Shown here piece after piece: positions 15,513 to 49,157 of a stretch of DNA of 64,000 bases (positions within the stretch are counted from its first letter, which is position 1; each line of letters begins with the position of its first letter). The notes under the pieces were generated by a model. That model did not search any database and was not told the DNA's origin. It was given only the letters and a program-made list of their open reading frames with translations. The DNA is taken from positions 124,001 through 188,000 of the forward strand of contig JALOTL010000006.1 of assembly GCA_025457915.1 (NCBI GenBank). Reading direction: 5' to 3'. This DNA is from Spirochaetota bacterium (GTDB lineage Bacteria > Spirochaetota > UBA4802 > UBA5550). The translations under genes were made by a program, and so were the position numbers.

Positions 15513-15755
15513 TTAAAAAAAAACAGTTCTTTCCAGATCATAAATCTGAAATTCAAGACCGCTTTGTATAAGCAGGGCCTGAATAGATGCTTTTAAATCT
15601 GGAGAAAATCTTATGCATACGCCGCAATCGGAACTGATATCCCTGGGGATCGGAATCAATTTTATGGGCAAATGGTGTTTCTTTAAAATTCCTTCAGCCA
15701 TCATAACATGATTTACGGATTTGAAAACCGCTATACGGAATGATTCTGTGGTCAT
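15513..15755 (-). CDS. DUF3343 protein
   Basis: 80 residues. 'IAVFKSVNHVMMAEGILKKH' and 'LIPIPRDISSDCGVCIRFSP' are the DUF3343 hallmarks, including the conserved Cys in the SSxCG motif. These small proteins often occur beside YedF and cysteine-desulfurase genes in bacteria that use selenium, and are thought to carry sulfur or selenium; that role is established by context rather than biochemistry. The ATG overlaps the stop of yedF by four bases. Confidence 0.88.
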   Translation of the reverse strand: MTTESFRIAVFKSVNHVMMAEGILKKHHLPIKLIPIPRDISSDCGVCIRFSPDLKASIQALLIQSGLEFQIYDLERTVFF

Positions 15756-16339
15756 GTGGTGATGATTTTACCGGCAGCCAGGAGTGTTTCAGTAATATCG
15801 TATGTATTTGAAACTGTACCGGACTCTATTTCATTCTTAACATTAAAATAATTAAGACAGGTTGCGCAAACCAGGATTCTAACTCCTGATTTCTCAAGTG
15901 CGGCAAGATCTTCAATTAATTCTGATCTTCCGACGGTAAGCTTTCCTCCCGTATTGAAAAAAATCATTGCATCCGGCCTGTTTGCAGATTCGGACAGGGT
16001 ATTCAAAAAGCTCCTGATCAGGATGCATATCGGTTCATCATCGCCCCTGCCCATTTTAATTTCAGACAGGATTAAAACGCTGTCTCCTTCCGGTTTAATG
16101 ATGCCGATATCAGCACCGGATCTGGACATGGCTTCACCGGATGTTTTTATTTTGAAATAAATACCGTCTTTTTTTTTGACTTCTTTGACCGCGCATTGCT
16201 GTGAATGAACAAACCGTCCGACGTTTTCATATGGGGCTCCATCATCCACAACAAGTAATAATTCATCATTACTTTTCAGTGCTTTTTTTGTTTTAATGTC
16301 CGGGTCAGGGCATGGCCCTCGAGTGTCAACGGTGATCAT
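15752..16339 (-). CDS. yedF: YedF-type sulfurtransferase-like selenium-metabolism protein
   Basis: 195 residues from ATG 16339; an in-frame GTG at 16348 is the alternative. An N-terminal TusA/SirA-like domain (about 1-70) starts 'ITVDTRGPCPDPDIKTKKAL', with the persulfide Cys in a CPxP motif that is slightly shorter than usual. The C-terminal DsrE-like domain ('AMIFFNTGGKLTVGRSELIE', 'ILVCATCLNYFNVKNEIESG') fits the YedF architecture. It lies between a ferredoxin gene and a DUF3343 gene on the same strand. No selA, selB or selD is visible here. Confidence 0.9.
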   Translation of the reverse strand: MITVDTRGPCPDPDIKTKKALKSNDELLLVVDDGAPYENVGRFVHSQQCAVKEVKKKDGIYFKIKTSGEAMSRSGADIGIIKPEGDSVLILSEIKMGRGDDEPICILIRSFLNTLSESANRPDAMIFFNTGGKLTVGRSELIEDLAALEKSGVRILVCATCLNYFNVKNEIESGTVSNTYDITETLLAAGKIITT

Positions 16340-16443
16340 GGATATCACTCACTCCGGGGTTTTTATAAAAAAAGATATTCCGTTCGGATAAATTCATAAT
16401 TAATTATTCTTATAATTTTTTTTGTTAATAAATTAAAAACATG

Positions 16444-16647
16444 TCAAGATATAATTACAGGATACCTGTCATTTATGCTCACCATTGCGCCTCTCGGACA
16501 ACTTATGACGCAAAGACCGCAATCGATGCATTTTTCTCGGTCAATTTCAGGTTTTACAGTGCCATTTTGAATAATAGCACCGACAGGGCATTCTGAAACA
16601 AGCGGGCACCTGTGATTTGCAGGACAACTTTCAGTGATATTTATCAT
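16444..16647 (-). CDS. Two-cluster 4Fe-4S ferredoxin
   Basis: 67 residues; ATG at 16647 has GGAGG five bases upstream, so the longer frame from 16659 is rejected. One canonical cluster motif is 'CIDCGLCVISCPRGAM' (CX2CX2CX3CP). The other side has 'CPANHRCPLVSECPVGAI', with wider spacing and a His, as in ferredoxin-like proteins of anaerobes. It is probably a small electron carrier for the downstream yedF/DUF3343 pair or an unseen partner. Confidence 0.9.
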   Translation of the reverse strand: MINITESCPANHRCPLVSECPVGAIIQNGTVKPEIDREKCIDCGLCVISCPRGAMVSINDRYPVIIS

Positions 16648-17021
16648 AAGAACCTCCAAATATTTAAATATTTTATATAATACTTAAATATTATAAATCT
16701 GTCAATCTTTTCATACTAGTAAACCTCAATAAGTAATTTTTTTTGCCGATTCTTATTAATCATCCATTTTTAAATCAGCATTCGCAACATCCTCTTCGTC
16801 GATGCCCACCTTTAGTCTCGGAATCAGTGCATTCATGCACGTCAGGCAGAACATCTGAAAATATCATGAGTTGTGATTATAATACCCGGAGAACTCCCGT
16901 TTTTTTAATGTTATTCATAATGAATTCAGATTATAAATGGAGCACCCTCCGGAAAAATTCTTGATATCCGGCCATATCGTCAGTATTGATTATTGATATC
17001 ATCCGCAGCATGAAAGGTAAA
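16648..17021. other. Intergenic stretch with one doubtful Cys-rich micro-ORF
   Basis: About 370 bases separate the divergent ferredoxin and GH18 genes, so promoters for both should lie here. On the minus strand, 16775-16867 could encode 30 residues ending 'GGHRRRGCCEC'. The same frame continues upstream through a TAA to another ATG at 16918. No ribosome site precedes the 16867 ATG. I do not call a gene. Confidence 0.4.
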
Positions 17022-40866: not shown

Positions 40867-41389
40867 ATTTCATCCCCGAATTTATCCATGCCCGGCATCA
40901 AAACGTTATTCCTTTCACATGATGAAATAAATAATTCCTTCCATAACATCATTATCGATATTTTACAGATATTTATAAACCGCTTTTAAAAATGAAGTTC
41001 ATTGTTCAGGAATGAAAAAATTCAGTATTGCCTCATCCCGTAATCGGTATTTGCCTTTTCCATTATATTTTAAAACAATTAGAAAAGCACCTGGAAAAAT
41101 TTTGCTGAAAATAGCCGGTTTTCAAATACCGGTAAAGCCGGTTATTTATCATTACAATAAAAAAAGCTTATGCAGGAGTGCAGCCTGCATAAGCCTTTAA
41201 CCTGGAAAATATTTATAGGAGTGTAATATTTAGTAAATTAATCGGCTTATCTTTCAAAATAATTAATTTTTTTTAGTAAATCCCCTGATTTAAATTGATT
41301 TTAAACTTGATAAAATTGACAAAATCGCATGATGATATGAAACTGATTCAGATTTATACTGCATATTACAATACCAGGAGGTCGATCCG
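40867..41389. other. Intergenic region with an orphan minus-strand terminator
   Basis: About 520 bases between the divergent Sua5-family and DUF1573 genes. The notable element is the strong hairpin at 41159-41194, which reads as a terminator leftwards although no gene ends there. The short plus-strand frame at 41012-41200 has no ribosome site and contains this hairpin, so I do not call it a gene. A TTGACA at 41316-41321 has no good -10. Confidence 0.5.
41159..41194 (-). terminator. Orphan Rho-independent terminator (minus strand)
   Basis: GCTTATGCAGG at 41166-41176 pairs perfectly with CCTGCATAAGC at 41184-41194 around a seven-base loop. On the minus strand a run of seven U follows the stem (A-run 41159-41165). 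No annotated minus-strand gene lies to the right before 41390, so it may end a small RNA. Confidence 0.7.
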
Positions 41390-41770
41390 GTGCCGATTAA
41401 AAAAACAATAATACCGGTTTTATTATTTACCGTCATGGTTTCGTGTCTTGGCACCCCGAAGATAAAATTCGATTCAGTTACTCACGATTTCGGGAAACAG
41501 CGGCCGAATGTTGAAAAAAAATACGTTTTTACATTTCTGAACAACGGCGACGGTACTCTGAGGATCAAGGACATTAAGGCCGGGTGAGGCTGTACGGGAG
41601 TGCTCCTTACAAACAAGGAGGTCCCTGCCGGAGGCAGGGGTGAAATTGAAATCACGCTTAAAACCAGCTCTTATCCGGGCCCGTTGAACAAATCGATATA
41701 TATTTATTCCAACGACGGTGAAAACAAGGTCATACGCCTGACCGTTTCCGCTGACGTGATAAAGAAATAA
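41390..41770 (+). CDS. DUF1573 lipoprotein with in-frame UGA at the conserved Cys (candidate selenoprotein)
   Basis: The frame starts at GTG 41390, eight bases after AGGAGG, and reaches TGA at 41585-41587 after 65 codons, then continues in frame to TAA at 41768-41770 (126 residues if UGA is read). A lipobox 'TVMVSCLG' is present. The first part has 'IKFDSVTHDFGKQRPN' and 'YVFTFLNNGDGTLRIKDIKA'; after the UGA comes 'GCTGVLLTNKEVPAGGRGEI' and 'LNKSIYIYSNDGENKVIRLT'. DUF1573 proteins normally read ...SCGCT... here, so the UGA replaces exactly the first Cys. Selenocysteine is the attractive reading; a nonsense mutation is the alternative. glgX starts ten bases after the stop. Confidence 0.72.
41596..41639 (+). 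promoter_or_regulatory. Possible SECIS-like hairpins downstream of the UGA
   Basis: GGGA 41596-41599 pairs with TCCC 41622-41625, and CTCCTT 41603-41608 with AAGGAG 41615-41620, around ACAAAC; the loop starts 22 bases after the UGA, in the range of bacterial SECIS elements. The loop lacks the usual leading G. A competing hairpin, CCCTGCC-GGA-GGCAGGG (41623-41639), has a G-loop but lies farther away. Suggestive only. Confidence 0.4.
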
Positions 41771-41779
41771 CCGGCGATC

Positions 41780-43912
41780 ATGACTGACGAACTGAAAACC
41801 TATCCCGGCTCGCCCCTGCCGCTTGGAGCAAACACCAGGAAAAACGGCACACAGTTTTCCATTTTCAGCAGGAACGCCAGATCAGTAAGCCTTGTGCTGT
41901 TCGAATCAGCCGGCCCTGGCGCAAAATCGGTTGCAATCGAACTCCATCCCGAAAAAAATAAAACGGGAGACATCTGGCATATCCTCGTGGAGGGGATCAA
42001 GGACGGACAGCTTTACGGATACAGGGTTGACGGTCAATATAATCCCGCCGAGGGTTTCAGGTTCAACGGTAACAAGCTCCTGGTGGATCCCTATTCCAGG
42101 TCCGTCTCCGGCAGGCCAGAATGGAACCTTGACGAGGCGAGGGGCTACGACCACGAATCCCCGCTCGAGGATCTATCCTTTTCGGAGACTGACAGTTCCC
42201 AGCATGTCCCCAAGAGCATCGTAACAGGCTACAGGCCCAGCAACGAGGATAAGCCTTTAAATCTTCCCCTGAACGAGTCAGTCATATATGAACTCCATCT
42301 GAAGGGCTACACCGTGCATGGATCATCCGGAGTCAAAAACGGCGGCACCTATGCCGGACTTACCGAAAAAATTCCATACCTCAGGGACATGGGCATTACG
42401 GCCGTGGAGCTCATGCCAATACAGGAATTCGATGAAACGGAAAACATCAACATCAACCCTCTTACCGGTGAACGGCTAAAAAACTACTGGGGATACAGCA
42501 CCCTTTCATTCTTTTCGCCAAAGGGAGGCTATTCCGCGTCCGGATGCATGGGCGAGCAGGTGAATGAATTCAGGGAAATGGTAAAATCTTTCCATAAGGC
42601 CGGCATAGAAGTGATACTGGATGTTGTTTTCAACCACACCTCCGAGGGGGACCAGAAGGGGCCGACGGTTTCATTCAGGGGGATTGACAATTCGGTATAT
42701 TACATCCTCGAGGACGATAAGAGATACTACAAGAATTATTCCGGGTGCGGCAACACATTCAACTGCAACCATCCGTTCATAAGGGACTTCATTCTCGACT
42801 GCCTGAGGTACTGGGTCGTTGAAATGAACGTGGACGGCTTCAGGTTCGACCTTGCATCGATCCTCGGAAGGGACCAGAACGGCAATATCACGAGCAACCC
42901 GCCCCTGATCGAAAGGATAGAGGAGGACCCGATACTCAGAAACACCAAGATCATCGCGGAGGCATGGGACGCCGCTGGCGCATACCAGCTCGGGACATTC
43001 CCCGGAAGATGGGCCGAATGGAACGGCAAATACAGGGATGACGTCAGGAAATTCTGGAACGGCGGCATCGACAGCGCGGGCGCCTTTGCGACAAGACTTA
43101 CCGGCAGTTCCGACCTTTACCAGTTTTCTGAAAAGGGCCCCAACCAGAGCATAAATTTCATAACGTGCCATGACGGTTTTACTCTGAACGACCTGGTCAG
43201 CTACGCCGAAAAGCACAACCTTGAAAACGGCGAGAACAACCTTGACGGCGAAAACTGCAACTACAGCTGCAATTTCGGCATCGAGGGCAGCGACGCCACG
43301 CCCTATATTGAAAATCTCAGGCTGAGGCAGATGAAGAACTTCCTGGCGACCCTTTTCCTGTCGCAGGGCATACCGATGATCCTTGCGGGAGATGAATTCA
43401 TGAGGACCCAGAAAGGCAACAATAACGCTTATTGCCAGGATAACGAGATTTCATGGATCAACTGGTCGCTCCTCGACAAAAACAGGGAGCTTTTCAGCTT
43501 TATGAAATACATGATCAATTTCAGGAAGGAACATCCGATTTTGCGGCGCAATAAATTTTTTACTGGAACGCCAAATAACGGATGCACATCCACCGACGTC
43601 ACATGGCACGGGATAAAAGCCGGCAATCCGGACTGGAGCCCGGAAAGCAGGGTCGTAGCCATGCTTCTCAGCGGCGAATACGCAGGAATAGATGCCGGTA
43701 AAGAAGACAATGACTTATTCGCGGTTTTTAATTCATCCCTGATAAACAGGCATTTCGAGCTTCCTGATGCACCCTCCGGAAGGAGATGGCGGCTTGCCTT
43801 TGATACATCCAGGAAATCCATAACTGATACGGGAAATACAAAGGATGATACGGGCATTGAATCCGGAAGATATTACATCAGCAGGTTTTCAACCGCGGTT
43901 TTTATCGCATGA
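41780..43912 (+). CDS. glgX: Glycogen debranching enzyme GlgX
   Basis: 710 residues, full length. An N-terminal CBM48 domain ('PLPLGANTRKNGTQFSIFSR') precedes the GH13 barrel. The four conserved GH13 regions are present: 'VILDVVFNHTSEGD', 'VDGFRFDLASILGRD' with the nucleophile Asp, 'KIIAEAWDAAGAYQ' with the acid/base Glu, and 'NFITCHDGFTLNDLVSY' with the transition-state stabiliser. It removes alpha-1,6 branches from glycogen limit dextrins. It seems to share an operon with the DUF1573 gene and is closed by a strong terminator. Confidence 0.96.
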   Translation: MTDELKTYPGSPLPLGANTRKNGTQFSIFSRNARSVSLVLFESAGPGAKSVAIELHPEKNKTGDIWHILVEGIKDGQLYGYRVDGQYNPAEGFRFNGNKLLVDPYSRSVSGRPEWNLDEARGYDHESPLEDLSFSETDSSQHVPKSIVTGYRPSNEDKPLNLPLNESVIYELHLKGYTVHGSSGVKNGGTYAGLTEKIPYLRDMGITAVELMPIQEFDETENININPLTGERLKNYWGYSTLSFFSPKGGYSASGCMGEQVNEFREMVKSFHKAGIEVILDVVFNHTSEGDQKGPTVSFRGIDNSVYYILEDDKRYYKNYSGCGNTFNCNHPFIRDFILDCLRYWVVEMNVDGFRFDLASILGRDQNGNITSNPPLIERIEEDPILRNTKIIAEAWDAAGAYQLGTFPGRWAEWNGKYRDDVRKFWNGGIDSAGAFATRLTGSSDLYQFSEKGPNQSINFITCHDGFTLNDLVSYAEKHNLENGENNLDGENCNYSCNFGIEGSDATPYIENLRLRQMKNFLATLFLSQGIPMILAGDEFMRTQKGNNNAYCQDNEISWINWSLLDKNRELFSFMKYMINFRKEHPILRRNKFFTGTPNNGCTSTDVTWHGIKAGNPDWSPESRVVAMLLSGEYAGIDAGKEDNDLFAVFNSSLINRHFELPDAPSGRRWRLAFDTSRKSITDTGNTKDDTGIESGRYYISRFSTAVFIA

Positions 43913-48220: not shown

Positions 48221-48727
48221 TTGAAAAATAAAATCAGGTCTTTTAGAAAGACTTTAAGGAAATTCGAAAGGGAAATTGAAAAGCACCTGGAATCCACAAG
48301 GTCGTGCGGCATCGGCCTGGCTCAATGCCACGCACTGCTTGAACTGGAGGATCTTGGAATAACAACGATCGGCGGTCTCGCATCATCGTTAAACCTCGAT
48401 AAAAGTACTGCCAGCAGAACGGTTGACGGTCTTGTCGCCGCCGGCCTTGTTCAGCGAACGGCAGATACCGGCGACAGGAGATTTTCCAGGATATCCCTGA
48501 CGCGTGACGGGATCGAAAAATGCATTATTATAAACCGCATGAATGATGATTTTTTTGAAGGAATGCTTGAACTGGTTTCGGGAACAGAACGTGACGGATT
48601 AATTAAATACTTCATGATCCTGACGGATGCACTGGCTGAATGCAACTCGCCGGATTTTAGGGCAGCAAACATCCGCGCCGAATCCCGGTGCCGAATCAAA
48701 GGAGGGCAAAATGAGCATTGCCGATAA
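48221..48727 (+). CDS. MarR-family transcriptional regulator
   Basis: 168 residues from TTG 48221. An in-frame TTG at 48176 lies inside the promoter/operator and would be untranscribed, so the later start is preferred, though no strong ribosome site is seen. The winged HTH is standard: 'TTIGGLASSLNLDKSTASRT', 'VDGLVAAGLVQRTADTGDRR' and 'FSRISLTRDG'. Its last 17 bases overlap the C_GCAxxG_C_C gene, which it likely controls. A Cys in 'STRSCGIGLAQCH' could allow redox sensing (inference). Confidence 0.88.
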   Translation: MKNKIRSFRKTLRKFEREIEKHLESTRSCGIGLAQCHALLELEDLGITTIGGLASSLNLDKSTASRTVDGLVAAGLVQRTADTGDRRFSRISLTRDGIEKCIIINRMNDDFFEGMLELVSGTERDGLIKYFMILTDALAECNSPDFRAANIRAESRCRIKGGQNEHCR

Positions 48728-49157
48728 AGCCGAGGCTGTATATAATGAAGGCTTCAATTGCGCACAGGCGGTTTTTTCGGTTTTTGCCGAAAAAGAAAAT
48801 CTCGACCCGTCAACATCTTTTAAAATCGCGTCCGGATTCGGAGGCGGCATGGCGTCCATGGGTGAAACATGCGGCGCGGTTACGGGGGCCTTCATGGCAA
48901 TAGGTTTAAAATACGGAAGATTCAGGGCTGGTGATCACGAAGCAAAAAAAAGAACCAACGGAATAATAAGGGAATTCACAAGGCGATTCATTGAAAAAAA
49001 CAGCACCCTGTTATGCAGGGAGCTTTTAAAATTGAATCTCAATGATCCGGCTCAATATAAAGAAGCCTCTGAAAAAAACCTGTTCAGGGACCTCTGCCCG
49101 AAATTCGTCCGTGATTCCGCAGAGATACTTGACAGTCTTTTAAAAGAAAACGGATGA
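48711..49157 (+). CDS. C_GCAxxG_C_C family redox protein
   Basis: 148 residues from ATG 48711, with GGAGGG four bases upstream. The family motif is visible as 'NEGFNCAQAVFSVF', 'GFGGGMASMGETCGAVTGAF' and the later conserved Cys residues ('LLCRELLKLN', 'RDLCPKFVRDS'). Members have four conserved Cys and probably bind an iron-sulfur cluster or disulfide; function is unknown. It is in an operon with the MarR gene upstream and the aminotransferase downstream. Confidence 0.93.
   Translation: MSIADKAEAVYNEGFNCAQAVFSVFAEKENLDPSTSFKIASGFGGGMASMGETCGAVTGAFMAIGLKYGRFRAGDHEAKKRTNGIIREFTRRFIEKNSTLLCRELLKLNLNDPAQYKEASEKNLFRDLCPKFVRDSAEILDSLLKENG

Follow-up and report, generated by a model that had tools for sequence, protein, structure and literature searches.

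A frame on the forward strand of the window (the whole stretch of 64,000 nucleotides analysed here) starts with GTG, is interrupted by a single in-frame TGA at 41585-41587 and runs on to a normal TAA end at 41768-41770, as the preliminary description had stated (Table 1). When the TGA is read as Cys, the read-through product matches the full PF07610 (DUF1573) profile over residues 25-123 with 75 bits, the gathering cut-off being 26.1 bits. The assignment to DUF1573 with a UGA at the first Cys of the CGCT motif thus holds, homologues having Cys at this position. The genome (3.66 Mb, 96% complete) has no other DUF1573 gene. A strong ribosome site and a lipobox had also been proposed. The former was found 8 nt upstream of the start, whereas the lipobox is only a loose one (VMVSC), with a non-canonical Met at -3. 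Judging from its N-terminal sequence, the protein is probably exported and lipid-anchored.

Among the TGA-interrupted frames of the window lying outside clear genes, only this one displays, by eye, family-like sequence on both sides of the TGA. Other TGA-interrupted frames, among them the DUF1858 gene and a ferredoxin-like ORF near 16444, were rejected by eye, their TGA being an ordinary stop. The DUF1858 protein (TIGR03980, 44014-44217) and a C_GCAxxG_C_C protein (48627-49157) belong to families that have selenoprotein members elsewhere; both carry Cys here.

Table 1. Features of the DUF1573 locus and selenium-linked genes of the window
Feature	Position	Strand	Basis or remark
Probable DUF3343 ORF, 80 aa, adjoining YedF	15513-15755	-	By eye only
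YedF selenium-metabolism protein	15752-16348	-	TIGR03527, 156.8 bits (cut-off 110)
Shine-Dalgarno sequence AGGAGG	41376-41381	+	Sequence; 8 nt 5' of GTG start
Predicted DUF1573 selenoprotein gene, 126 aa, Sec as residue 66, TAA stop	41390-41770	+	Sequence, PF07610 match
Signal-like hydrophobic N-terminus, then Cys19 after VMVS (loose lipobox)	41390-41446	+	Sequence; Cys at equivalent place in many relatives
Predicted Sec codon UGA, opening the U-G-C-T motif where Cys homologues have CGCT	41585-41587	+	TGA kept in relatives
Hairpin 1, likely SECIS: stem CUCCUU/AAGGAG (41603-41608/41615-41620), loop ACAAAC starting 21 nt after UGA	41603-41620	+	Folding, helix search
Hairpin 2, CCCUGCC-GGA-GGCAGGG, probably accompanying the SECIS or belonging to it	41623-41639	+	Conserved in part; disrupted in L044
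glgX-like isoamylase/glycogen debranching enzyme gene	41780-43912	+	Directly 3' of DUF1573 gene; same in most relatives

A search of the genome for the selenocysteine machinery returned selA, selB, tRNA-Sec and selD, and the reading therefore does not fail for want of sel genes. The tRNA-Sec (anticodon UCA), selA (TIGR00474, 457 bits in a profile search) and selB (TIGR00475, 300 bits) are grouped in one locus. Furthermore, selD (363 bits) has its own in-frame TGA at the catalytic GAGUAAK position. The encoded SelD is unrelated to the DUF1573 protein. It nevertheless constitutes a second gene of the genome with TGA at a known Sec site, hence an internal positive control indicating that the machinery is in use. 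This selD (L051, G000:C37:10112-11038) lies directly 3' of a gene for a class V aminotransferase, possibly a cysteine desulfurase or a selenocysteine lyase.

YedF and DUF3343, both linked with selenium metabolism, had been noticed in the window. YedF is confirmed by a profile score above the cut-off; the match to DUF3343 was made by eye. Lying side by side on the minus strand (15513-16348), the two form a selenium-linked pair, and a ferredoxin-like ORF (16444-16659) is located just upstream of this pair.

Relatives were searched for in 198 genomes using the protein with TGA read as Cys as a query. At the homologous position, 36 genes, distributed over 32 genomes, carry TGA, besides which a few Cys forms were found. 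All 32 of these genomes harbor a tRNA-Sec, and selB exceeds the cut-off in 31 of them, the exception (G045) being 80% complete. Four members of the order that lack tRNA-Sec (G021, G026, G029 and G030) gave no DUF1573 match. Another genome, G007, only 72% complete, carries the Cys form alone and has neither tRNA-Sec nor selB. Cys is also present despite SelB and tRNA-Sec in G001, as the sole copy, and in G008, G017 and G031, as a second copy. Downstream of the TGA, pN is lower than pS in all 351 pairs compared (351/351); by this measure, purifying selection is acting on the protein sequence that follows the TGA.

These data bear on the possibility that the gene is a pseudogene, i.e. an ordinary Cys protein disrupted by a nonsense mutation or a sequencing error. 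Such an event would account for one TGA breaking an otherwise normal gene, and one copy in a relative (L063) looks decayed. However, a TGA shared at the same codon by so many genes of separate genomes, the selection acting beyond it and the tRNA-Sec found in every TGA genome in effect refute this explanation. The preliminary description had considered a random nonsense mutation at exactly this codon unlikely, which the shared TGA bears out. It had also proposed aligning the homologues there, degraded sequence after the TGA being what would speak for a broken gene; most relatives have TGA, followed by intact sequence. As for L063 (G045:C234:4090-4419), it is a second DUF1573 copy that reads U-G-R, the next Cys being lost, and that contains an extra in-frame TGA; it probably represents a paralogue in decay or an error of assembly.

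Alternatively, the UGA could be decoded otherwise, either being reassigned to a standard residue or acting as a programmed stop that yields a short functional product. Any gene recoded at UGA yields a truncated product to some degree, and one of 65 aa would be expected here. However, TGA is the commonest stop of the window, ending 32 of its 51 genes, and UGA is therefore not reassigned in this genome. Moreover, homologues have Cys at this codon, and the second half of the gene is selected as a protein. Such alternative decoding is thus very improbable.

The hairpin downstream of the UGA had been put forward as a possible SECIS, and comparative data strongly support this proposal. For each gene, the best helix was searched for and compared with a null of synonymously resampled codons (300 resamplings). 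In each of the first 27 Sec genes (27/27), the top-scoring helix downstream of the UGA comprises 5-10 bp and places its loop 18-22 nt beyond that codon. Their mean best-helix score reaches 9.5 vs 5.9 (sd 0.25) for the synonymous null, none of the 300 resamplings scoring as high. Eight held-out genes gave 9.2 vs 5.4 (again 0/300); six of them have the hairpin, L058 and L064 showing weak hairpins only. Furthermore, over the 17 codons that follow the UGA, identical residues are encoded by the same codon at a frequency of 0.61, vs 0.41 upstream and 0.36 further downstream. Folding energies agree with a hairpin after the UGA. In the three Cys forms tested, stems are shorter (4-6 bp) and, in two of them, misplaced; these forms also lack the IPAGG peptide, which encodes hairpin 2.

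As the register of the stem varies among the genes, a fixed-register alignment shows only modest covariation: 75.5% of cells are paired vs 42-62% in slid versions. Likewise, hairpin 1 was missed when the alignment was folded with RNAalifold, its stem register changing from one sequence to the next. The usual bacterial SECIS model (bSECISearch consensus) expects a G early in the loop; this G is absent from the loop of hairpin 1.

Taken with the sel genes, the TGA kept in relatives and a hairpin exceeding the synonymous null, the selenoprotein reading of the preliminary description is supported. We consider, with a probability of about 0.95, that 41390-41770 encodes a genuine selenoprotein belonging to the known DUF1573/OS_HP2 kind, its recoding being strongly supported by comparative evidence. 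SelB would deliver Sec-tRNA(UCA) to this UGA (41585), and the hairpin, with its loop 21 nt downstream, would guide this SelB-dependent decoding. The product would be a 126-aa exported, probably lipid-anchored protein with an ASH/PapD-like Ig domain, two strands of which would flank the loop carrying the Sec-Gly-Cys dyad.

Two reviews (PMC9312934, PMC13188914) already count DUF1573 with a UGC motif among the selenoproteins, the first listing being from the deltaproteobacterial symbiont of Olavius algarvensis. Therefore, the gene described here is an added member of a known family. It shares with OS_HP2 (pfam07610, UxC motif) the same domain and Sec at the same U-G-C position, with Cys homologues elsewhere. 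However, this protein scores only 66.3 bits against NF041425 (NCBIfam, OS_HP2 family (seleno)protein), below the curated cut-off of 100, and would thus belong to a separate branch. All of the aligned relatives (30/30) also match NF041425. In addition, the Sec form is the more frequent one throughout an order here, whereas the ocean survey reported 2 Sec vs 354 Cys sequences for OS_HP2 (PMC2398784). An incomplete search of the literature found no published description of this clade, its order-wide spread or its RNA element. What is new here is thus an order-wide clade, mostly linked to glgX and below the NF041425 cut-off, together with its RNA element.

An AlphaFold2 model (pLDDT 89, pTM 0.77) predicts an all-beta domain that matches, by structure comparison, the PapD-like domain of HYDIN (2e6j) and a P. 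gingivalis protein of unknown function (2qsv). The predicted fold would be an ASH/PapD-like Ig domain, common to these two proteins; 2qsv differs in having no Cys among the residues that align with the U-G-C dyad. In the model, strands 54-61 and 66-70 flank the loop that holds U-G-C, a region predicted with lower confidence. The dyad would most likely serve in periplasmic redox reactions, as a selenenylsulfide, or in soft-metal binding.

In the latter case, the selenoprotein would be an exported binding protein in which the dyad acts as a ligand of soft metals or metalloids (Hg, Cu, As) instead of a redox catalyst. The short U-x-C spacing and a fold that is Ig/PapD-like, not thioredoxin-like, speak for such a role. 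Furthermore, no redox partner gene adjoins the DUF1573 gene, whose neighbors are glgX and Sua5/YciO, the latter being divergent and upstream in many relatives. However, no metal-resistance genes were seen beside the gene, and most selenoproteins of known function are oxidoreductases (PMC2398784). We therefore regard metal binding as a real possibility, though well short of even odds.

Two Cys forms, L035 and L045, are nested among Sec forms in the tree with moderate branch support, a placement that suggests Sec-to-Cys reversion. A broader and more tentative proposal, which we consider rather unlikely as a whole, is that Sec is the ancestral and dominant form in the order, in an exported Ig-domain protein with a conserved glgX neighborhood, and that some Cys copies are reversions that erased the hairpin and the IPAGG peptide imposed by it. 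If so, these proteins, whose fold is not that of thioredoxin, would make up a functional class of their own among selenoproteins.

Hence, DUF1573 selenoproteins, known from few Sec sequences, appear to occur widely within one bacterial order, in which reading the UGA as a standard stop would truncate them. Moreover, the set of 36 Sec genes, in which a strong hairpin occurs with varying stem register, together with the nested Cys forms, offers natural material for studying the constraints that a SECIS places on protein sequence, and it points to a putative role for selenium in an exported, non-thioredoxin fold. Within the order, a second group of Sec paralogues (L047, L057 and L059-L062), characterized by STAFFF..KPSI and devoid of the lipobox Cys, clusters as a clade with good support.
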